Shown here: positions 459 through 52,792 of the stretch, in pieces | Layout: every line of letters begins with the position of its first letter | How positions within the stretch are numbered: the first letter of the stretch is position 1 | Origin: Bacteroidales bacterium | GTDB lineage: Bacteria; Bacteroidota; Bacteroidia; Bacteroidales; Bacteroidaceae | Length of the DNA: 64,000 bases | Assembly (NCBI GenBank): GCA_012517855.1 | Contig: JAAYUD010000067.1 | Span: forward strand, 62,001 to 126,000 | Reading direction: 5' to 3' | The notes under the pieces: generated by a model | Database searches by the model: none | What the model saw: only the letters and a program-made list of their open reading frames with translations | Told to the model about the DNA's origin: nothing | Translations under genes and position numbers: made by a program

Positions 459-1010
459 ATGAACAATATAAACTTCATCGCTATTGATTTTGAAACAGCT
501 ACACCAAAGCGAGCTTCTATCTGTGAAGCTGGTATTTGTGTTGTAAAGGCTGGCACAATTGTGGAAACTAAATCGTGGTTAGTCCGGCCAGAGGATAACC
601 TATACAGTTATTGGAACATAAAGATTCATGGCATTCAACCAGAACAAACCGAAAATGCTCCCTCCTTTCCTGAAGTATGGAAAGAGATTGAAGCATACTT
701 GGATGAATGTCCTGTTTTAGTAGCGCACAATGCAGCTTTTGATATGAGCTGCATTCGCCATTCGTTAGAGCTGTATGGGTTGGAAAAGAGCGAAATAATA
801 TATTATTGCTCGCTTCTTGCTGCTCGTAATATTTACGATTCACCCTGCAACAGTCTTGATTATTTATGTGACCAGTTTGAGATACCCGAAGGTACGCATC
901 ACAGAGCTGGTGATGATGCAGAAATGTGTGCACGTCTTTTTCTTAAAGAAATCAATGATGCAGGTTGCTGTGAATTAGAAGAAATGAATTATTGTAACGG
1001 AAAACTATAA
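459..1010 (+). CDS. DEDDh-family 3'-5' exonuclease (DnaQ/polymerase III epsilon-like)
   Basis: The 183-residue protein is a stand-alone RNase T/DnaQ fold exonuclease. Motif I is IDFET (Asp10, Glu12), motif II is HNAAFD (Asp95) and motif III is HRAGDD (His148, Asp153), which gives the complete DEDDh metal-binding set. Family members remove nucleotides from DNA or RNA 3' ends with two divalent metals. It begins 5 bases after the WYL regulator and ends 10 bases before a DUF262 gene, so the four genes look like one transcript. It could serve repair, but the setting suggests nucleic-acid degradation within a defence module. Confidence 0.85.
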   Translation: MNNINFIAIDFETATPKRASICEAGICVVKAGTIVETKSWLVRPEDNLYSYWNIKIHGIQPEQTENAPSFPEVWKEIEAYLDECPVLVAHNAAFDMSCIRHSLELYGLEKSEIIYYCSLLAARNIYDSPCNSLDYLCDQFEIPEGTHHRAGDDAEMCARLFLKEINDAGCCELEEMNYCNGKL

Positions 1011-1020
1011 TACTTTAACT

Positions 1021-2766
1021 ATGAGAAAAGATATGAAATCTATATCAGAGCTTAAAGATAATATATTTGTTATTCCTACTCATCAAAGAGGTTATAGATG
1101 GAGAAATGACAATGTTGAAGCTTTGCTAAATGATATAAAAGAATTTATTGAAGAAAAGAAGCCTTCTATAAACCAAAAACGAGTCTATTGTTTGCAGCCT
1201 CTTGCTGTAACAGAAATAACACCTAACAAATATAATGTTGAGGATGGGCAGCAGAGATTAACTACCTTATTTCTTTTGCATAAGTACCTCTTTAAAAACA
1301 ATAATGATTTCTACTCATTCGATTTTGAGAGCGATATAAAAGGAATCAGAAAGTCGTATTTGACTGATGAAATAGACAACACAAACTACAAAGATCAAAG
1401 TGATATAAACTTATATCATATCGGTTGGGCTTACACATCGATAAAGGAGTGGTTTGTTAATGGTCTCGGCAAAGGATGCGAAGAGGAATTCAAAACATTA
1501 TTGAATGCAGATTCAAAACATGACTCAATACAATTTATATGGTATGTGGTAGACAAAGGTAAAGCTAGGGAGGTATTTAGAGACCTTAACTATGGAAAAA
1601 TAAGATTGACGGGAACAGACCTAATTAAGGCATTATTATTGTCTAAAGATAATGGTTTAGCCGAAGAGGACAGAGCTGTAATAGGTCAACAACTGGAGGA
1701 CATGCAAGTAATGATGGAAAACGATAGATTTTGGTTTATGTACCAACATAGTGACCCTATCTATCATACAGATAGAATGGACTTCCTTTTCAACTTGACC
1801 GAGAATGTTAGCGAGGATGATTATCATCATTTCCCATATCTGGCTTTTTCTAAATTTAATAAAGCGCAGAAGGAAAATAAATTACTAGAAGAGTGGGGTA
1901 AGGTTCGCACACTATATATTATACTAAACGACTTATACGAGAATCCTTACTATTATCATTATATTGGCTATCTAGTAAATAGAACAAAAAATTTTACTCT
2001 AAGGTATTGGATAAAATTGTATGAAGATGAGTCTAAGATACAGTTCCTTCTAAAAATGAAACAAGAAATAAAGGAGCAATTGCCCAATAAAAGCATTGGA
2101 CAATTTTCTTATGGTGATGATAGCCAGGAGACTCTTCGATCGATACTCATTCTTCATAACATAGAAACAATACTTCATGTATATCGCAACAATAAGAAGG
2201 AGTATGGTTCAGAGCAAGAATTTGAGCGATTCCCATTTGATTTATTACAAAAAGAGAAATGGGATATTGAACACATAGCTTCGCAGACAGATAATCCTCT
2301 TACACGCAAATCTGACTGGGACGAGTGGGTTGAAAGCACTTTTGATGATTTTAGTCAACTAAAAAGTAATGATATTCTGAAGAAAGCTTATGACAGTTAC
2401 TATAAAGAACCTAACAAACTAAACTTTAATGAACTGTACAAGGGTGTTCTAGCTGAATTGGACAAGCAATTAGGAGAACTAAAAATTAATGATAGTGATA
2501 AAGATAAACTTGGCAATTTGGTTCTTCTTGATCGTCACACCAATCGTAGCTATCACAATGCCCTTTATCCAAAGAAGAGGAGAACAATCATCTCTTCACC
2601 GCGATATATTCCAGTATGTACAAGACAGACTTTTATGAAGTATTACAATAAGAACAAAGATATTAAGATGCTTGCTTGGACAAAGGATGACTTTGCAGAT
2701 TATATGAACGATATAAACAGAAAACTTTCGATATATTTTGGTTCAGAGGAAACAAATAACAAATAG
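1021..2766 (+). CDS. GmrSD-like DUF262/DUF1524 protein
   Basis: The 581-residue protein has the layout of GmrSD-type type IV restriction enzymes. DUF262 is at the N-terminus: the HQRGYRW motif is at residues 21-27 and the DGQQRLTTL motif at 75-83; this domain resembles ParB/Srx folds and uses NTP. A DUF1524 His-Me-finger nuclease domain is at the C-terminus: WDIEHIAS at 414-421 carries the catalytic-type His418, and LGNLVLL followed by NRSYHNALYPKKR lies at about 497-520. GmrSD cleaves phage DNA carrying glucosylated hydroxymethylcytosine; other DUF262-DUF1524 proteins sense phosphorothioate. The substrate here cannot be read from sequence. The gene overlaps nothing and is followed 5 bases later by a second DUF262 gene. 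Confidence 0.8.
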   Translation: MRKDMKSISELKDNIFVIPTHQRGYRWRNDNVEALLNDIKEFIEEKKPSINQKRVYCLQPLAVTEITPNKYNVEDGQQRLTTLFLLHKYLFKNNNDFYSFDFESDIKGIRKSYLTDEIDNTNYKDQSDINLYHIGWAYTSIKEWFVNGLGKGCEEEFKTLLNADSKHDSIQFIWYVVDKGKAREVFRDLNYGKIRLTGTDLIKALLLSKDNGLAEEDRAVIGQQLEDMQVMMENDRFWFMYQHSDPIYHTDRMDFLFNLTENVSEDDYHHFPYLAFSKFNKAQKENKLLEEWGKVRTLYIILNDLYENPYYYHYIGYLVNRTKNFTLRYWIKLYEDESKIQFLLKMKQEIKEQLPNKSIGQFSYGDDSQETLRSILILHNIETILHVYRNNKKEYGSEQEFERFPFDLLQKEKWDIEHIASQTDNPLTRKSDWDEWVESTFDDFSQLKSNDILKKAYDSYYKEPNKLNFNELYKGVLAELDKQLGELKINDSDKDKLGNLVLLDRHTNRSYHNALYPKKRRTIISSPRYIPVCTRQTFMKYYNKNKDIKMLAWTKDDFADYMNDINRKLSIYFGSEETNNK

Positions 2767-2771
2767 AGATT

Positions 2772-5321
2772 ATGGCTGATACATTTTATGATATTTTCAA
2801 CAAAAAAACCATATTAATTCCACGTCTTCAAAGAGATTATGTTCAAGGTGGAAACAGATCACTTATGAGTGAGTTTGTGGAGAAACTTGTTAGTTCGGTC
2901 GAAGAAGACAGATCTGTTGATTTAAATTACATATATGGCAGATGGGAATCGGGATATCGGTACATCCCAATTGATGGGCAACAAAGATTAACGACCCTTT
3001 GGTTGTTGTTCCTGTATGCAAACAGTATAAACAAAGAACCGATACAATATAGCGTGTCTATAGACTTTGAGGCAAGAGAATCTGCCCAAGGTTTTTGCAA
3101 AGCTATTCTCACCAAGTTAAGAACAGTTTTGTCAAATTCGGATAGAAGGATAAAATTGTCAGACAGATTGCGTAACCAGTCTTGGTTCAAAGCTTCTTGG
3201 GTAAAGGATAGAAGCGTTAAATCAATGCTATCTGCTTTGGACATAATAGATAATAAAATTGCCAAAAGACAATGTCGGAATGATCTCTATGAAAGGCTCA
3301 TTAAGAGCTCTAATATACAGTTTTGCCTGTTTAGTATCGAAGGACAGTTAGATGATGATGTCTACATTAAGATGAATGGGCGTGGACTTCCACTTACGGA
3401 TTTTGAGATGCTTAAATCGTGGATGGATGGGTTCATTGAAGAACAATTCAAACCTGATTTCCGTTCGAAATGGACTGAGAGAATTGATAATGAATGGACC
3501 GAGCTAATCTGGATGAATAGAAATCTGGATGAAAAAGATAAAAATGGTGATGATATCTCATATCGCATAGATGATGAGTTTATGCGAATTATGTATAATC
3601 TTGTTTACTTGAATTGGATTTGTAAAAGGCCTTCGGATCTGTTTGAATCAAATGAAAAAGAAATTGATGGTCTTACGATTAATGATAATATACAAGATCT
3701 TTGTAGAATCCTAAATTTGTCGGAAAAGGATCCAGACGCTGAATTTATGTATGGTAATCTAATGAAACGTTTTCATGAATCTGATGAATATTATCTTCCG
3801 TTGTATGCGTTAGATAAAATACATCTTTTTAATAAGGATCAAATAGAATTTATCTACAAGTGCTTTGAACTGTTGAGTACGGCCAATGCCAACACAGAGA
3901 AGTCTTTATTGTTTTCTAGACAAGAAAAAATTATTAATTTTGGAATGGATGCCAATGAATATAAAAGTATATTTCATCAGATATTTCTTGAAGACAAACC
4001 TACTTACGAAAAATACGCTCTTATGTATGCAGCGCTTAAACCTGTTTCCAAATCCGAAAATGCAGAAACGAGCTATAAAGACTGGATGCGAGTGATGCGT
4101 AACCTTATTTGTGCCACTGATATTCGCCTTGAAAATCTAAGAGATATTTTGTCAACTATTGACCTTATTGCAGAGAATGTTAAAAATACTGATATTTATG
4201 AGTTCTTATCAAAAGATAATATCGTTATAACAAACTTTCTCCCTAACCAAATAAAAGAAGAGAAAATGAAAGCTTCATTGATTTTGAAAGACAAAGAGTG
4301 GAGAGATATATTTCTGGACTTTGAAAATCATCCATTCTGCAAAGGAACGATAGACTTTATCTTCCATTACATGCCGATTGATGAAAACTATACGATTTCT
4401 GATTTCAAGGAAAGAGCGATAATCTTCAAGTCACTTTTCGATGCAAAAGGTATCAGGTCTATCCACAAAGATGATGGTAGGATATATCGTGCTCTTATGT
4501 GTTACTCTACACATCATACTTTTGGATATGGCTTGAGTGATTCCAAATGGCAGTTTATGGATTCTAAAGAAGATTGGAAGGAGTTCCTTATCGATGAAGA
4601 AACCAATGAAAAATCAGATAATACTGCACATAATGACTGTATGAAGAAAGTGATCCGTTTCTTACTTGATGATCTTAAAACAACGATTGATTTACAGACT
4701 TATAGACATGAAGTAGTAGAAAAGGTGGGTGACAGTTTATGTGAAATTTACAAATTAGAACTTGAAAACCCAACGATAACAGACTGGAGACGGTTCTTTA
4801 TTCAATATAGTGACGTCTGGACACGTATGGGCAAAAAAGTCTGCTCTCGGAAGAGTGATTATGACATCTTATTATTGAACAAGACAATAGCAAGAGACGG
4901 AGGTATAAGTGAATTGCGTTCTTATTGCTTTTACATAGATGTTCAAAAAGAGCAAGAGAATAACTACAAGAAATACAAAAACTGGGACGAAGTGGGTTAC
5001 GAAATGTATGGAGAAACTTGTTTGCGCATAGAACATAGTGCCGCAAACAAATTAAAAGCACATATAGACCTATCTTTTAGAGGCAATAATAATAGTACTG
5101 ATGACGAATATCGGCTAGAACTTTTTTATAGAAGGCCAGAGGAATTGATCGAACTGACAGATGATGATGCAACATCCGCTACGGAAAAAGATTTCACTTC
5201 TATCGCAAAAAATATCAATATGGAATTTAAAGACAAACGATATGTGTCTTCATGTGGTCTCAGTAAAGAAGAAGCGAAGTCACAATTCGACAAATTAATA
5301 GAGTCTTTAAGAATAATATAA
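2772..5321 (+). CDS. Large DUF262 protein, partner of the preceding gene
   Basis: The 849-residue protein has an N-terminal DUF262 domain: RLQRDYVQG at residues 18-26, DGQQRLTTLWLLF at 68-80, and the family motif YIKMNGRGLPLTDFEMLK further on. No DUF1524 His-Me-finger can be seen, and the C-terminal 500 residues match nothing I recognise. Start is ATG at 2772, 5 bases after the previous stop, so the pair is almost certainly co-transcribed. Two DUF262 proteins in tandem, one with and one without a nuclease end, suggest a complex in which one subunit senses and the other cuts; this is inference. A long palindrome (5364-5495) follows the stop codon. Confidence 0.7.
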   Translation: MADTFYDIFNKKTILIPRLQRDYVQGGNRSLMSEFVEKLVSSVEEDRSVDLNYIYGRWESGYRYIPIDGQQRLTTLWLLFLYANSINKEPIQYSVSIDFEARESAQGFCKAILTKLRTVLSNSDRRIKLSDRLRNQSWFKASWVKDRSVKSMLSALDIIDNKIAKRQCRNDLYERLIKSSNIQFCLFSIEGQLDDDVYIKMNGRGLPLTDFEMLKSWMDGFIEEQFKPDFRSKWTERIDNEWTELIWMNRNLDEKDKNGDDISYRIDDEFMRIMYNLVYLNWICKRPSDLFESNEKEIDGLTINDNIQDLCRILNLSEKDPDAEFMYGNLMKRFHESDEYYLPLYALDKIHLFNKDQIEFIYKCFELLSTANANTEKSLLFSRQEKIINFGMDANEYKSIFHQIFLEDKPTYEKYALMYAALKPVSKSENAETSYKDWMRVMRNLICATDIRLENLRDILSTIDLIAENVKNTDIYEFLSKDNIVITNFLPNQIKEEKMKASLILKDKEWRDIFLDFENHPFCKGTIDFIFHYMPIDENYTISDFKERAIIFKSLFDAKGIRSIHKDDGRIYRALMCYSTHHTFGYGLSDSKWQFMDSKEDWKEFLIDEETNEKSDNTAHNDCMKKVIRFLLDDLKTTIDLQTYRHEVVEKVGDSLCEIYKLELENPTITDWRRFFIQYSDVWTRMGKKVCSRKSDYDILLLNKTIARDGGISELRSYCFYIDVQKEQENNYKKYKNWDEVGYEMYGETCLRIEHSAANKLKAHIDLSFRGNNNSTDDEYRLELFYRRPEELIELTDDDATSATEKDFTSIAKNINMEFKDKRYVSSCGLSKEEAKSQFDKLIESLRII

Positions 5322-44068: not shown

Positions 44069-44111
44069 GGTCTGAAATGAATTAAAAATATTTCAATAAA
44101 TAAATCTCTAT

Positions 44112-44147
44112 GCAAAGATATTTTCTTTACCTAGTTGCTAGTACAAA
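44112..44147 (-). promoter_or_regulatory. Promoter of the GH20 gene
   Basis: On the minus strand TATCTTTGC at 44120-44112 fits the -7 consensus exactly, with TTTG at 44147-44144 upstream. The distance to the ATG at 44068 leaves a leader of about 35 bases. Confidence 0.6.
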
Positions 44148-44276
44148 GGTAAGTATTTTAACTGAAAGTCAATCGTAAAAGAGAAAAATTGTTACTATGT
44201 GTTTTTAAACTATTATAAGAGATCGAAGAGGACTCTATTTGTTACCATATAAAAATAGTTGAATTATATTTTGTAG

Positions 44277-45599
44277 TCAATTATCATGCTTGTGTTTGAT
44301 ATTGAATCTTGAGTATTTATAAATATGATTTTTATTAATAAGAAAATTGATACGTAAATGGAAATCAATATCTGTTTGTGGATTTATTAAATAACTTAAA
44401 TCTAGATTTTTTATATGATACCATTCCATTATTGATGATTGAAAAATAGCAATTTTAAAGATCCCTTTCCCTCTGGAAAAGTTATATTCACACTTATCTA
44501 TACTATTGCAGATATTAGTTAATGAATTATTGTCAAATATTATTTCTGGCTTGAAATCTGATTCAATGCCCATATTATCGACAATTTTAAAATTAGAAAA
44601 TTCTTCTATGAAAAGTTCAAATAATTGTTTTTCCCATTTTCTGAATAAGTTGTAAGGACTTCTAAAATAGTAACATCTATAGTTGCCTTTTTCAATCGAA
44701 CCGATAGAAAAGCTAGCAAATTTTTGATCTGGATGGTCATGTATGTCTTTTTGTGATATACTAATACTTTGAAATACATCAATAATCATTTGTACTATTG
44801 TTTTGGTTGTTTCGCTTGGTATATAATGAATTATCATTTCAGCTAAATAACTGTTGTCAATATCATCTATTATTATTTTATATTTTCTTAAGAATTTATT
44901 ATATCCATGGTTATATGGATTTCTAGGGTCGCTTGAGATGAAACTTCCTGTTAAAAACTCACCGAATTTCTTATATGATATCTCTTTTAAATCTTTGGCT
45001 TCTAATTTGAGATCAAAAGATTTTGGTATCATATTTTTTATTTGTTGCAAAAGATCGTTTAAGATAATCTGTTCATTCATCACATTTAATTCTTTCTCTT
45101 TTACATTAAGAGCGAATGTTACCCCTAGGGGAATAGAATAAGGGGAGTCGAGCAAGGAAAATAACGATCTGATATTAATATTCACTTGCAAAACGACAAA
45201 AACTTTTTTATTGTCTATCCTTTTTATATATTTCTTTATGTAGTGATATACAATGTTGTTTAAAAGAAATTTGTTTGATGTTGTAATATTAGTCAAGTTT
45301 CTTGATGTGAAAGTACAATAAGTTTGGCATATAGCTTTATATAGTGCATTATTTACTGCTTTCTCTTCAGAGTCCTCTAATGCAGAAATGATAAGTGAGA
45401 TTTTATCACTTTTTATAGACTCTTTCGGATCGGTTGACATTCTCTTTGATGTGGTTTCATCATTGAGAATAGGATATATATTTTCATTTTGGACTAATTT
45501 AAGTTGTCTTTTTTTTAATAATAGTTCCTTTCTAAAGGAAACGTAATGAATAAAATGTTGATTGATTCGCTGCATAAAATAAGCTATATATGTTCTCAT
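44277..45599 (-). CDS. Unknown 440-residue protein, last gene of the phase-variable operon
   Basis: I do not recognise the family. The protein has no signal peptide or membrane helix; it is rich in Ile, Asn, Lys and Ser. An N-terminal basic segment (FRKELLLKKRQLKLVQ) is followed by mixed alpha/beta sequence, including KKVFVVLQVNINIRSLFSLL, a region with GSFISSDPRNPYNHGYNKFLRKYKIII, and HDHPDQKFASFSIGSIEKGNYRCYYFRS. It follows the UpxY-like gene by 63 bases and shares its low GC content. It is probably a cytoplasmic protein expressed only when the promoter upstream is flipped on. Confidence 0.7.
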   Translation of the reverse strand: MRTYIAYFMQRINQHFIHYVSFRKELLLKKRQLKLVQNENIYPILNDETTSKRMSTDPKESIKSDKISLIISALEDSEEKAVNNALYKAICQTYCTFTSRNLTNITTSNKFLLNNIVYHYIKKYIKRIDNKKVFVVLQVNINIRSLFSLLDSPYSIPLGVTFALNVKEKELNVMNEQIILNDLLQQIKNMIPKSFDLKLEAKDLKEISYKKFGEFLTGSFISSDPRNPYNHGYNKFLRKYKIIIDDIDNSYLAEMIIHYIPSETTKTIVQMIIDVFQSISISQKDIHDHPDQKFASFSIGSIEKGNYRCYYFRSPYNLFRKWEKQLFELFIEEFSNFKIVDNMGIESDFKPEIIFDNNSLTNICNSIDKCEYNFSRGKGIFKIAIFQSSIMEWYHIKNLDLSYLINPQTDIDFHLRINFLINKNHIYKYSRFNIKHKHDN

Positions 45600-45662
45600 A
45601 AATATTTTATTAACCTGTAAACAATTTTAATGTGTTAGATGATTGTATTATAAATTATTGAG

Positions 45663-46130
45663 TTATACATTTAGATGCTTCTTTGTCTTTTTGTTTTCTG
45701 CAATTAAATGGTCTATTATTTGAATAATCTTTTTTAAATGTAGATTAGCAGACTTTATTTCTTTTACTTGATAATTAGATAAAATGAATGGGGCATCTTG
45801 ATTTGGTACTCGAAGATATCTACAAAAAGGGGCTTCTTTTAATATTTTAGATAACTCTGCCTGGCTTATATTAATAAATATAGTCATAGGAATTATAGGA
45901 GATATATTCCTTAATCCGTATTTTTTTTCTCTTTTTTCTCCTGGTAAGAAAAATTCAATTTTCATTCGGTTAAGTAAATCACATGTTTTTTCTTCTTTAT
46001 ATCTTTGCACTTGAATTATTAACCATTTTCTGTCTGTATGTCGAATAAATAGATCTTTTGTATTGGATTTAAATTCTTCATTTGCTATTGGTAAAGCTCT
46101 GTTTTTTATTTCTTGAATATTTTTTTTCAT
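45663..46130 (-). CDS. UpxY/NusG-like N-terminal domain protein (putative antiterminator)
   Basis: The 155-residue protein resembles the NGN domain of UpxY antiterminators: DRKWLIIQVQRYKEEKTCDLLNRMKIEFFLPG, then ISPIIPMTIFINI in place of the usual (V)IPMMIFVHV, and RYLRVPNQDAPFILSNYQ in place of the RG...PAVIPD-Q segment. The C-terminal part is a basic helix, and there is no KOW domain. UpxY proteins bind polymerase paused in the leader of their own operon and prevent early termination, usually in capsule loci. Here the neighbours are not capsule genes. Divergence from the family is large, so the assignment is moderate. Confidence 0.6.
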   Translation of the reverse strand: MKKNIQEIKNRALPIANEEFKSNTKDLFIRHTDRKWLIIQVQRYKEEKTCDLLNRMKIEFFLPGEKREKKYGLRNISPIIPMTIFINISQAELSKILKEAPFCRYLRVPNQDAPFILSNYQVKEIKSANLHLKKIIQIIDHLIAENKKTKKHLNV

Positions 46131-46142
46131 ATATCAACTCTT

Positions 46143-46490
46143 TTATTTTATCTTCATGTGTAATGTGACTATTTGTCTGGATCCCGCAACCGTTTGTATG
46201 CATACACGAATATTTAAAACATCGCACCATAAAAGATTATATTTTTTAGGAGAAAATCCTTTTATGTAAAGCTTGTTTTTATCTATACGGATAAGTTCAA
46301 AAAAATAGGATATCATACAAAAACCATTTTCGTCAATATCGGCATATTGGATGTCTTCAAAAGAATTTATTAATAACAAAGTAGTATCAAGCAGAAAATA
46401 GTTTTTTAAGTATTTTATAAAGGATAAACAGCTTGTCTTTTCAACACGCCAGAAATTCTCTTTTTTTTCTATTAGAATTACTTGTCTCAT
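46143..46490 (-). CDS. Unknown 115-residue protein, first gene of the phase-variable operon
   Basis: The small protein starts MRQVILIEKKENFWRVEK and is predicted alpha/beta with no membrane helix or signal peptide. No family was recognised. Its ATG lies 76 bases from the inverted repeat at 46566, and its stop is 12 bases before the UpxY-like gene. A position ahead of a UpxY-like gene is unusual; it could be a small regulator or a partner of the 440-residue protein. Confidence 0.65.
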   Translation of the reverse strand: MRQVILIEKKENFWRVEKTSCLSFIKYLKNYFLLDTTLLLINSFEDIQYADIDENGFCMISYFFELIRIDKNKLYIKGFSPKKYNLLWCDVLNIRVCIQTVAGSRQIVTLHMKIK

Positions 46491-46623
46491 CTTTTTACTA
46501 CCTGTATTTTATCATAAGAATACATTTATTCTGTGTATATAATTCAATGGCCAGAATAGAATCTATTACTTATTAGGTAACGGATTTATATCGTCAGATA
46601 TAAGTAGAAGCGTGTTATTTGTT

Positions 46624-46648
46624 ATTGTGCTAATGAGTTTAGCACAAT
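46624..46648. promoter_or_regulatory. Perfect palindrome inside the invertible segment
   Basis: A 10-base arm ATTGTGCTAA and its complement are separated by five bases. No T-run follows on either strand, so an operator or a binding site for an accessory protein is more likely than a terminator. Confidence 0.5.
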
Positions 46649-46776
46649 GAGTAGATTTTATCTAACAAAAAATATTATAAGGAAAAGAGAACAGGAATAT
46701 TAGCATAGAATATCAAAATAGATGTTTTATAGTATTGAAATTGGCAATGAAATGCTATAAAGAAAATATGAAAAAG

Positions 46777-46808
46777 TTTTTATATATAAATTCTTTTATC
46801 TATTTTTG
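46777..46808 (+). promoter_or_regulatory. Promoter within the invertible segment (now pointing away from the operon)
   Basis: TATTTTTG at 46801-46808 (followed by C) matches the Bacteroidales -7 consensus, with a GTTTTT box at 46776-46781 about 20 bases upstream. Transcription would start near 46815 and run rightwards, antisense to the recombinase gene. After inversion the same boxes would lie near 46609-46602 on the minus strand, with a start near 46595 and a leader of about 105 bases before the first operon gene. Confidence 0.75.
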
Positions 46809-46908
46809 CGAAAATAAATTATAAATCCGTTACCTAATAAGTAACAGCGTTTTTATATTTTGTCATATTCATCTTTGTTAAGAGTGAAAAGTATCATATT
46901 TATTTTGG

Positions 46909-47850
46909 TCATATTATATTTCTTACAAAGCGATAGTTCTTTTCATTTACTTTTGTTCGCTCTGCAATATTGAATCCTTTTAAATAAATTTGAGTCGTTT
47001 TTATAGACTTATGCCCTAATGATTCACTTATCATTTCGATGGGGACACCTAGGTTTTTAGCGATTGTTGCCCATGAATGCCTAAAAGTATAAGATGAAAC
47101 AGGAATATTCGTCATTTGGAAGGTCTTGGCAAGTTTTTTTAAGTTCGTGTTAAACCTGCGCAAGGCTGATTGGTATTCGGTATACCCTTCTTTTGTACGT
47201 TTAGAATAATTTCCACTTAAGATAGAAAACAAATAATCATGCTGGTTGGACTTAGAAGTATTTTCATCTTTTACTAAGTGATGTACAAATTTGTATGCAG
47301 AATTTAATATGGCAATATCTATCGGTGTCCCTGTCTTTACCCTACAATAGTCTAATGTCCCATTTTTTAAATTTGATTTTTCCATGTGGGCAAAATCGAC
47401 GAAAGACATTCCACTAAATTGAAATAGCAAGTTCGCTATTTGTTGGGTTTTGTATAATTCTTTATTTTTAGTTTTTCCATATAATAATTTGTGAAGGTCT
47501 TTCGGCGAAATGGCCTTTTTATGGGTGCTGTCTATACCTGTATATACATCATGAAATAATCTGTGAATGTAAGGTGCTAAATTGGCATCTATTGCTCTAT
47601 TATAGATGCTGCGAAGCATTCTCATGTAAGTAGAGATCGTATTTAGCTTTTTGTGATGGTCCAATAAAAACTGATAATATTGCTTTAAGTTATCTCTGTT
47701 AACTTGTTTAAAGGTAACGATTTTTGTTCCACAAAACTCTGTAAAGGAACGTAGAGCGTTACTGTAGAGATGGGCAGTCGAATACCTTCCTTCCAATTCT
47801 AGTTGGATGATACGCTTATTTGCAAAATTGGTTAAAGTACTTTCTTTCAT
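46909..47850 (-). CDS. Tyrosine recombinase, probable invertase of the adjacent promoter
   Basis: The 313-residue protein has an N-terminal SAM-like domain (FANKRIIQLELEGRYSTAHLYSNALRSFTEF) and a catalytic domain: Arg257-His258 in YTFRHSWAT, His280 in LGHKS, nucleophile Tyr289 in TTQIYLKGF, and the beta-hairpin lysine in RVKTGTP. Where many Bacteroides members have Arg in RGMSFVD, this reads FSGMSFVDFAHM, so the first catalytic arginine is not obvious. The gene ends 65 bases from the invertible segment; local recombinases of this family commonly flip the neighbouring promoter. It could alternatively be a remnant integrase. Confidence 0.85.
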   Translation of the reverse strand: MKESTLTNFANKRIIQLELEGRYSTAHLYSNALRSFTEFCGTKIVTFKQVNRDNLKQYYQFLLDHHKKLNTISTYMRMLRSIYNRAIDANLAPYIHRLFHDVYTGIDSTHKKAISPKDLHKLLYGKTKNKELYKTQQIANLLFQFSGMSFVDFAHMEKSNLKNGTLDYCRVKTGTPIDIAILNSAYKFVHHLVKDENTSKSNQHDYLFSILSGNYSKRTKEGYTEYQSALRRFNTNLKKLAKTFQMTNIPVSSYTFRHSWATIAKNLGVPIEMISESLGHKSIKTTQIYLKGFNIAERTKVNEKNYRFVRNII

Positions 47851-49831: not shown

Positions 49832-52792
49832 CTATTTGTGATGGGGTTTTAATACTACCCCTGTTTTCTTTCGCCCGTCCATTTTTACTATCATAGGAAT
49901 GTCGAAGTGTATCCGGCGTAAATATTGGGTTTCTTCTGCAGCCGGTATTGAGTTGAGGTAATCAATATCATATATTCCATCTCTAATGTATGGACTAATA
50001 GTAAAATACCCTACTCCGAATGATGTTAGGTTTTGGAAAAAATGAGTGCCTTGACTTGGATCGATGCGATAATTGGTCAACCCAGCTTCTACTATAACTC
50101 GGGCTGCGGATATATTGGACCAATTGACAGGAATACCTAAATAGGGGTCACTGCTTCCCCAACGACCGGGTCCTACAAGAATATAATTTTTGTCCGTATC
50201 GAGAAATTTTCTGTTTATCTTAGCTATTTCTTCAGCAATATACGGATTATTCTTCGCTTGATAATTGTCTGTTTTTACGTATACCAAGTCTTGTACATCA
50301 TTTATAATGCCGCTGCCCAATGAATTGTTCGAACTTAAAATAAGATGTTCTTCTGGAATATTTGTTAGGTCTTCATCAATGGCAGCGCTCGAGTCTACTA
50401 TCGGACGAATTTGTAGCAGATAGAAAGTTCCGCTATTGTCTTCATTAAGAGTGGCTGCAAATTCTATTTCTATCGGACGGCGCATTTCTTGCTGTCCATA
50501 CTTTAATACTAACTGTAGTATTTTGGCAAGGGGAAATGCATCATGTTTTAGAATGTTGGCAAAGGTAATAACCTTTCTGCCTCCAGGGTAGATACCGTCC
50601 CTAATAATTTCGTCACATGGATCGTAAGTAGAAGCTATGAGGTGGAGTGAACCATCCGTTTCTGCATCCTTTACTTTTAATCTAAGTAGATTAAAGCCAT
50701 CATCGATAGAAAAGTTCTGACCTATGTTTTTTAAATCTAAGGCGTAAAATTCTGTTTGTGTCTCTTTCAGCGCCAATTCCATCACACTCGTTTGAAGTAT
50801 CTTTTTGGGGTGGTAGGGCGAAAATCGCAATGTTATGCCACCACTCACAATATACCTGCCAAGTCCGAGGGCTAGATTGACGGTGCCTTCTTCTGCTTTT
50901 TCTTCGCCGATAGGATAATAGTTGAGTGAACGTCCTACACCACTAAATGACGGATAGTAACGTTCTCCATATTGTTTTCCCACTACTTCTTGAATAATAA
51001 CGGCCATTTTCTCTTGGTCTATTACGTTGGAAGTAGCTTGCATATAAGCTTTGCTATCCTTGAAAAATACGGATGCATAGACACCTTTGATAGCATCAAG
51101 CAACATCTTCAACATTTCGTATTTGTCGTCGAGATGCGGTATCATATAGGTGTTATATATACCGGCAAAAGGTTGATAATGCGAATCTTCGAGCAAACTT
51201 GAAGAACGAATTGCCAAAGGCGATTTGACGACATCGAATAGAGTGAAGAAGTCATCGGCCAGCCGTTCCGGGAGTTTCGCCTTTAGAAAATAGCGTAGTA
51301 TGGTGTCATCATCGGTATCCGATAGGGCTATTTGATATAGATTGTTCGATTCCATAAATTCGTCAAAAACGTCAGTACAGAGAGCTACTGTTTTTGGAAT
51401 AACGATATTGGTGTTTTTAAAATCATCGAATTCAGGGTGACACTTTACCATGTTGTCGATGAAAGCTAAGCCACGGCCTTTGCCACCTAACGAACCTTCG
51501 CCAATACGGGCAAAATTCGAATATGTATCAAAACGATTACGTCGAAAAACGGCAACCACACCTTGGTTTTTCATTTTGCGGTATTTCACAATGGCGTCGA
51601 AGATTATCGTTCGGTGTGCATCGACATCTTGTAACGAATTCCATGTGATAGGACGTAGTACGGCTGCTACTGGAAAGATAGCGCGCGAAGCTAACCAACG
51701 CGATATGTGGTTACGGCTGATGTGGTAGAGAAATGACTCGGAAGGGACTGCAAAGATTATGTTTTGCAATTCTTTCAATGTACTGACACGGGCTATTTCG
51801 GCCATTGAATTCGGATTGCGGAATACGAAATCGCCAAAGCCGAAATTCTCGGAGACTGAACGTCGTAAGTCGACGTCCATCTTTTTTGAGTTCTTATCAA
51901 TGAAACTGGCATCGAATTGTTGTGCCCGTGCGGCATTTGTTAGTTCGGATGATTGTATGATGATCGGGACGAAAGGATCTTCTTCTCGAATCATTTCGCA
52001 TAACTTAAATCCTGCCTCGCTGTCTTTTTCTCCTTCGCGGGGAAATCGTACATCGGTAATGATGCCTAGTATGTTGTTTTTGTATTTTTTGTAGATGTGT
52101 TTTGCCTCTTCATAATTTCGGGCCAATACTATTTTAGGACGTCCCCGCATTCGTAGTTGGCGTTGGTGACCGTTGAGGGCCTCGGTAGAGAATAGTTGGC
52201 TTTGGCGGAGCACAAATTTATAGAGGTTGGGCAATATGGAAGAATAAAATCGGATACCGTCTTCCACAAGCAATATACATTGTACCCCAACTTCGGCTAC
52301 ATCGTGTTCCAAATTCATTTTGTCTTCCATCAGTTTGATAATGGAGACGAGTACGTCAGTATTGCCTAGCCAACAGAAAATAGAATCGAAAGCACTCAGA
52401 TCTTCATTTGCAATTCTCTTTGTAATGCCATGACTGAATGGAGTCAATATTACGATCGGAATAAGGGGATATAGTGCCTTGATGCGTCTGCCTATATCAA
52501 AACTGTCGTTGTCACCGGTTCCGGGCATGCAGATGATGAGATCGAAACTAACATCTCTCAGTCGGCTCATTGCTTCCTCTTCGGTAGATACCTGCCAAAA
52601 TCGTGGAGGATTGCTCAACGACATGGCTGTGTATTCATTAAATATCTTTTCATCTATTCGGCCGTCTTCTTCAAGAATGAAAGCGTCGTAAGGGTTTGCT
52701 ATCAGTAGGACGCTGAATATACGTTTTGTCATTAAGTTGGCAAACTGTGTATCTTTCAGGTAAAGCTGGTTAATTTTATGTATATTGAGCAT
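49832..52792 (-). CDS. Receiver-like protein with pyruvate phosphate dikinase/PEP-synthase N-terminal domain
   Basis: The 986-residue cytoplasmic protein has response-regulator-like sequence in the first 320 residues (FSVLLIANPYDAF; QCILLVEDGIRFY; GIITDVRFP; PIIIQSSE), then a PPDK_N/PEP-synthase ATP-grasp domain at about 430-800 (GSLGGKGRGLAFIDNMV; VKSPLAIRSSSLLEDSHYQPFAGIYNTY). The catalytic swivelling histidine domain and PEP barrel are absent, so it is not a full PEP synthase. Function is unknown; ATP-dependent phosphate transfer in signalling is plausible. It follows uvrA by 22 bases. Confidence 0.8.
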   Translation of the reverse strand: MLNIHKINQLYLKDTQFANLMTKRIFSVLLIANPYDAFILEEDGRIDEKIFNEYTAMSLSNPPRFWQVSTEEEAMSRLRDVSFDLIICMPGTGDNDSFDIGRRIKALYPLIPIVILTPFSHGITKRIANEDLSAFDSIFCWLGNTDVLVSIIKLMEDKMNLEHDVAEVGVQCILLVEDGIRFYSSILPNLYKFVLRQSQLFSTEALNGHQRQLRMRGRPKIVLARNYEEAKHIYKKYKNNILGIITDVRFPREGEKDSEAGFKLCEMIREEDPFVPIIIQSSELTNAARAQQFDASFIDKNSKKMDVDLRRSVSENFGFGDFVFRNPNSMAEIARVSTLKELQNIIFAVPSESFLYHISRNHISRWLASRAIFPVAAVLRPITWNSLQDVDAHRTIIFDAIVKYRKMKNQGVVAVFRRNRFDTYSNFARIGEGSLGGKGRGLAFIDNMVKCHPEFDDFKNTNIVIPKTVALCTDVFDEFMESNNLYQIALSDTDDDTILRYFLKAKLPERLADDFFTLFDVVKSPLAIRSSSLLEDSHYQPFAGIYNTYMIPHLDDKYEMLKMLLDAIKGVYASVFFKDSKAYMQATSNVIDQEKMAVIIQEVVGKQYGERYYPSFSGVGRSLNYYPIGEEKAEEGTVNLALGLGRYIVSGGITLRFSPYHPKKILQTSVMELALKETQTEFYALDLKNIGQNFSIDDGFNLLRLKVKDAETDGSLHLIASTYDPCDEIIRDGIYPGGRKVITFANILKHDAFPLAKILQLVLKYGQQEMRRPIEIEFAATLNEDNSGTFYLLQIRPIVDSSAAIDEDLTNIPEEHLILSSNNSLGSGIINDVQDLVYVKTDNYQAKNNPYIAEEIAKINRKFLDTDKNYILVGPGRWGSSDPYLGIPVNWSNISAARVIVEAGLTNYRIDPSQGTHFFQNLTSFGVGYFTISPYIRDGIYDIDYLNSIPAAEETQYLRRIHFDIPMIVKMDGRKKTGVVLKPHHK

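Follow-up and report, generated by a model that had tools for sequence, protein, structure and literature searches.

Which function can be assigned to an operon in which a gene resembling those of the UpxY antiterminators (Chatzidaki-Livanis 2009, as cited in PMC7819879 and PMC8748976) lies behind a phase switch, when the genes around it are not those of a capsule? The question is raised by a locus found in a 64,000-nucleotide stretch of DNA from a Bacteroidales bacterium (the window), for which the original prediction had offered two answers, namely a borrowed UpxY-like protein that exerts its control on other loci, in trans, or a new defence or surface-variation module.

The operon and its putative invertible promoter

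The operon consists of three intact open reading frames, all on the minus strand and spanning 46490–44277. In the order in which they would be transcribed in the ON state they are P3 (46490–46143, 115 aa), an orphan, P2 (46130–45663, 155 aa), an NGN-domain protein of UpxY-like type, and P1 (45599–44277, 440 aa), a diverged protein of the FlgT_N/Lpp20-like type. A gene on the same strand (46909–47850, 313 aa) encodes a tyrosine recombinase (DNA invertase) with matches to Pfam Phage_integrase and Phage_int_SAM_5. When the 44069–46908 region was shuffled 1000 times preserving first-order composition, the longest open reading frame averaged 57 aa with a maximum of 119 aa, and reached at least 115 aa in one of the 1000 shuffles. 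The P1–P3 frames are far longer than those of such AT-rich DNA once shuffled, and are thus real coding frames.

The GC content of the three genes is 0.26–0.28, as opposed to 0.37–0.43 in the neighbouring genes (approx. 26% versus approx. 38% for the surroundings), bearing out the AT-richness that had been noticed at the outset, and the operon was probably imported from elsewhere. The absence of capsule genes was also confirmed, as neither the operon nor its neighbourhood contains genes for glycan synthesis. No Rfam elements were found at the locus, the number of terminator-like hairpins in the region is about that expected by chance, and the longest direct repeat across the locus borders is 10 bp. 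A clean empty site was sought in related genomes: a GHL10 gene and uvrA adjoin in several of them, but in differing order, so that no insertion boundary could be drawn.

The phase switch that the original prediction had attached to the operon is recognizable from its sequence, and lies outside 44277–46490, between P3 and the recombinase gene. The invertible element (46563–46847, approx. 285 bp) is made of two 28-bp arms around 229 bp. The right inverted repeat (46820–46847, minus strand, core GTTACTTATTAGGTAACGGA) contains a recombinase site of the GTTAC-N7-GTAAC type, and the left one (46563–46590, plus strand, core ATTACTTATTAGGTAACGGA) differs from it by one change in the core, with 27 of 28 positions of the arms being complementary. 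Long inverted matches are far more numerous in the region than in shuffled sequences. Apart from this pair, no further copy of the repeat was found at other loci of the genome at up to three mismatches, and hence no other switch built on it.

Within the element, a Bacteroides-type promoter was located at 46777–46809 on the plus strand by sequence match, with a −7 box TATTTTTG (TAnnTTTG, 6/6 positions), a −33 box TTTT (consensus TTTG, 3/4 positions) and a spacing of 19–20. It is the only match of this type on either strand from 46490 to 46909. Because this promoter points away from the operon, the assembled state is the OFF one; flipping the element would place it approx. 100 nt ahead of P3. 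The GTTAC-N7-GTAAC repeats, the size of the element in the 280–290 bp range, the adjacent recombinase and the internal promoter are among the features by which Bacteroidales tyrosine-invertase invertons are recognized. A 12-pair hairpin (TTGTGCTAA...TTAGCACAA) is also present at 46622–46650, inside the element and near the left repeat; it would be weak as a terminator, and is perhaps a regulator or accessory site.

Kinship with the capsule invertons

Both the repeats and the recombinase have close relatives at known capsule loci. The right repeat GTTACTTATTAGGTAACGGA is identical at 19 of 20 positions, i.e. one base apart, to the Bacteroides xylanisolvens repeat GTTACTTCTTAGGTAACGGA, which flanks invertible regions of 289–290 bp beside UpxY genes and tyrosine-type invertases (PMC12118408), and it is also close to CCGTTACCTAAGAAGTAAC, the repeat of the capsule and S-layer switches of Bacteroides thetaiotaomicron (PMC12118408). 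The closest annotated relative of the recombinase, with 55% identity, is a capsule-locus invertase of Bacteroides finegoldii (NZ_OY725914.1, locus L090), which is followed by an invertible element, a KOW-bearing UpxY gene and capsule genes. The arms of this element (ATTACTTTTTAGGTAACGGAT/GTTACTTTTTAGGTAACGGAT) differ from those of the window at one position, and the A/G difference between the left and right arms is common to the two elements. Parabacteroides distasonis invertases are 42–48% identical to that of the window, and three of these relatives (45%, 42% and 42%) are found in the same layout of invertase, inverton, NusG-type gene and glycan genes. In a family member, no UpxY gene follows the invertases, which are more distant (45% and 40%).

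Thus, the B. finegoldii and B. xylanisolvens systems share with the locus a flanking tyrosine invertase, near-identical repeats, an element of similar size (285 bp in the window and 289–290 bp in those published) and an NGN-family gene behind the switch. They differ in that a KOW-bearing UpxY gene comes first and is followed by glycan genes, whereas in the window a 115-aa orphan, a KOW-less NGN protein and a FlgT_N-like protein are encoded. Judged from these similarities, the switch belongs to the published class of capsule-type invertons and is in itself ordinary.

UpxY genes are known to be enriched beside invertons (PMC11892184), and a three-gene UpxY inverton operon has been reported in B. 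xylanisolvens (PMC12118408). Loci formed by an invertase, an inverton and upxY but carrying antibiotic-resistance genes as cargo have also been described, under the name of IP-ARG loci, with upxY being intact, fused, or partly or completely degenerated (PMC8748976). These loci resemble the one under study in having non-glycan cargo behind such a switch and an altered upxY; they differ in that their cargo confers resistance, whereas in the window the NGN gene is an intact short open reading frame with a new tail, and is the second gene rather than the first. As recombinase, repeats and layout all correspond to known capsule invertons (PMC12118408), and with this precedent for non-glycan cargo, the suggestion of a new kind of module is not sustained: the arrangement itself is well known, and it is the cargo that is unusual and that was not seen elsewhere with the methods used.

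Two further observations were made on the P. distasonis loci. The NusG-type proteins encoded at two of their capsule invertons (351–365 aa; L095, 8441–9496, and L097, 8397–9494) carry, after the KOW domain, a C-terminal extension with no Pfam match, which by eye resembles UpxZ. Furthermore, a gene of the PEP/pyruvate-binding type is found near the invertase in the window (49832–52792), and a gene with this annotation is also near one of the P. distasonis invertase–NusG capsule loci (L095, 1–1354), maybe by coincidence.

The three proteins of the operon

P2 matches Pfam NusG with an E value of 6e-7, exceeding the gathering score, and the NCBIfam UpxY profile NF033644 with 2.3e-10, but only over its NGN half (profile positions 1–98 of 164) and with 40.7 bits, below the curated cut-off of 100. 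The identification of the second gene as encoding a UpxY-like NGN protein devoid of KOW is therefore upheld. No KOW domain is found in P2, the profile match stopping at position 98 and the alignment containing none, and there is no space for one, because P2 ends there and the gap to P1 is of only 63 bp. The NGN domain is followed by approx. 30 residues that, from their sequence, may form an amphipathic helix. On comparison with seven canonical UpxYs, P2 keeps 16 of the 34 NGN columns that are invariant among them, and 1 of 6 positions of the W-SDRRK loop. With the UpxY proteins P2 shares the NGN core and the position in an operon behind an invertible promoter; it differs from them by the missing KOW, the score below the cut-off, the lost W-SDRRK loop and the absence of a capsule operon. 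UpxY antiterminators, which act against termination in the 5′ leader of their operon, are encoded early in capsule or glycan operons, while no glycan-synthesis genes are near P2. The lack of KOW and the score below the curated cut-off are the reasons why P2 should not be called a UpxY.

Identity between P2 and the full-length UpxY-type proteins compared is approx. 13–24%; P2 would descend from, or be a sister of, the UpxY gene that usually follows such a switch directly, a direct descent from the original upxY of this locus being less certain at such values. Among the best ~150 UpxY matches listed from 393 genomes of the order, all extend to profile position 156 or beyond, which suggests that KOW-less forms are at least uncommon, as far as these best matches indicate. 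Homologues lying always inside known capsule loci would count against the original prediction, and those full-length UpxY relatives that were examined and carry an annotation do lie there, but a true KOW-less orthologue to which the question could be put was not found. A PDB search returned no sequence relatives of P2, and its single-sequence structure model (pLDDT 39) is too poor to check the residues that touch RNA polymerase. The isolated N-terminal domain of RfaH has been shown to bind elongation complexes at any site (PMC6370827) and to activate a reporter lacking ops (PMC3905879), and by analogy P2 may work like the NGN half of a UpxY.

Of the two neighbours of P2 that had been described as unknown proteins, P1 turned out to belong to a recognizable FlgT_N/Lpp20-like family, while P3 has kept that status. 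A search of 150 relatives with P1 led to a protein of an uncultured Phocaeicola (tblastn, 1e-22), with which P1 aligns over the full length, with 29% identity and no frameshift, and through which 35 loci across Bacteroidota (L051–L085) were reached. P1 matches the profile of this family with 8e-32, as evaluated against 300 shuffles of each protein. A DUF6175 gene lies beside the P1-like gene in 33 of the 35 loci, the other two being on short or truncated stretches, and genes for secreted proteins of approx. 330 and approx. 165 aa are usually also present. Matches of the family members to FlgT_N or LPP20 are weak and fall short of the gathering scores; P1 has this domain in common with them.

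P1 differs from these relatives in several respects. They start with hydrophobic leaders, whereas no signal peptide is visible in P1 by inspection, nor is there an in-frame upstream start that would supply a leader. Genes for DUF6175 and for the ~330-aa and ~165-aa partners are missing beside P1, and DUF6175 is absent from the entire genome to which the window belongs. P1 also appears to be under a phase switch; in the flanks of the 35 P1-like loci no NGN gene was found (0/35), and a recombinase is present in one, approx. 3 kb off. The AlphaFold model of P1 (pLDDT 72) places residues 61–182 nearest to FlgT, dodecins, Tip-alpha and Lpp20, the best match being FlgT 3w1e (Z 6.9 over 78 residues) and Lpp20 5ok8 yielding Z 5.1, both of which are middling values; no match at E≤0.001 was returned by Foldseek with this model, and no sequence relatives of P1 were found in the PDB. 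From the sequence comparisons, P1 is best assigned to a secreted FlgT_N/Lpp20-like family, as a displaced and diverged member that was probably imported.

The set of genes found with the P1 relatives constitutes by itself a conserved and uncharacterized Bacteroidota operon (DUF6175, the ~330-aa secreted protein, the FlgT_N/LPP20-like protein and the ~165-aa secreted protein; for example L052, 4855–9479); in some members, additional domains occur or the P1-like gene is present more than once. No mention of DUF6175 was found in the literature searched.

No family match was obtained for P3 (the searches run included Pfam, NCBIfam UpxY and PADLOC), and no credible relative was detected in 393 genomes, the best E value being 0.002. 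The best matches, to LolC-like, histidase-like and other proteins, were inspected and found to be unrelated. A relationship with the ~165-aa protein that accompanies the P1 family was rejected by comparison of profiles and shuffles, and the idea, formed by eye, that P3 might correspond to the small protein whose gene follows that of NusG in the capsule operons of P. distasonis was also discarded, with scores below those of shuffled sequences. As far as these comparisons reach, P3 is an orphan. The P1–P2–P3 set was not found elsewhere, namely with P1 as the query in the 150 relatives or, by short exact patterns that detect close relatives only, as a single query in 84,980 species genomes, with P2 in the 393 genomes of the order (one UpxY match), or in viral, phage and plasmid collections.

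Interpretations of the locus

Taken together, these data are best explained by an operon made phase-variable by an inverton of the Bacteroidales tyrosine-invertase (capsule/S-layer) class, in which the glycan cargo is absent and which has been stripped or re-used with other cargo, an interpretation that we consider probable, with some reserve. It is the economical one because decay of upxY and replacement of the cargo behind such invertases have both been published. The invertase would recombine the GTTAC-N7-GTAAC repeats, flipping the approx. 285-bp element, and P3, P2 and P1 would then be transcribed through a leader of approx. 100 nt. P2, having apparently kept the NGN core and lost KOW and most of the W-SDRRK loop, would most likely travel with RNA polymerase and counteract pausing with low specificity, in its own AT-rich operon and perhaps in others, without the KOW-mediated contacts to the ribosome or Rho, and P1 would be the probable effector. 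The gene order, with P3 first and the NGN gene second, counts against this interpretation, since the capsule operons examined differ, as do the −33 box with 3 of its 4 positions and the low identity of P2 to full-length UpxY-type proteins; the missing KOW domain, W-SDRRK loop and P1 signal peptide are also compatible with decay.

The last point leads to the possibility, which we regard as unlikely and yet the most serious of the alternatives, that the locus has no function today, being what is left of a capsule inverton after loss of the glycan genes, with a dwindling remnant of UpxY next to stray genes of imported origin. The very low GC content, the disappearance of KOW, of the UpxY loop and of the signal peptide, the published cases of invertase loci in which upxY has degenerated in part or altogether (PMC8748976) and the failure to find the gene set elsewhere are all in line with it. 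However, three frames are still open where chance seldom yields 115 codons, the full-length alignment of P1 with its family member (29% identity) shows no frameshift, and the invertase frame, the repeats and the promoter are intact.

Action in trans, as proposed originally, would imply that the KOW-less NGN protein, when ON, competes with NusG or with a KOW-bearing UpxY, thereby repressing or retuning capsule or other operons. NGN proteins do share a single site on the polymerase and compete for it (PMC7593976, PMC6370827), UpxZ provides a precedent for cross-regulation, and a possible target exists in the same genome, where contig C60 carries the one other UpxY-type gene, which has KOW and is followed by an UpxZ gene (4e-20), in a clear UpxY–UpxZ locus. 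On the other hand, P2 is only 18% identical to this UpxY, and we consider such a role rather doubtful. To a similar degree we doubt that P2 is a functional NGN-only NusG paralogue, with the helical tail in place of KOW, that is switched by inversion and alters elongation elsewhere in some cells. The interval between upxY and upxZ on contig C60 (L045, 11613–12707) is an unusual stretch, with no long open reading frame and about three degenerate direct repeats spaced by approx. 270–330 bp and 67–90% alike.

Should P2 be functional, nature would have provided a single-domain NusG paralogue whose expression is phase-controlled, offering a test of NGN without KOW in cells. Even as a relic, the locus would show how a capsule inverton loses its glycan genes and comes to carry others, adding to what is known from the antibiotic-resistance genes behind the same switches, and it points to the uncharacterized envelope operon of DUF6175, P1-like proteins and their partners that is conserved across Bacteroidota.

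Finally, that P1, P2 and P3 form a new defence or surface-variation module is very improbable: the AT-rich composition does look imported and functions that face phages are commonly phase-variable in these bacteria (PMC12118408), but none of the four proteins of the locus has a PADLOC match, the set is neither present in the plasmid and viral collections searched nor recurrent in genomes, and the lack of a signal peptide in P1 argues against a surface role. Elsewhere in the window (459–5321), a DEDDh exonuclease gene is followed by genes for two GmrSD_N (DUF262-type) proteins, with partial PADLOC matches to HEC-06/Orf5/SspE and PDC-S48, which may represent a restriction or defence cluster.
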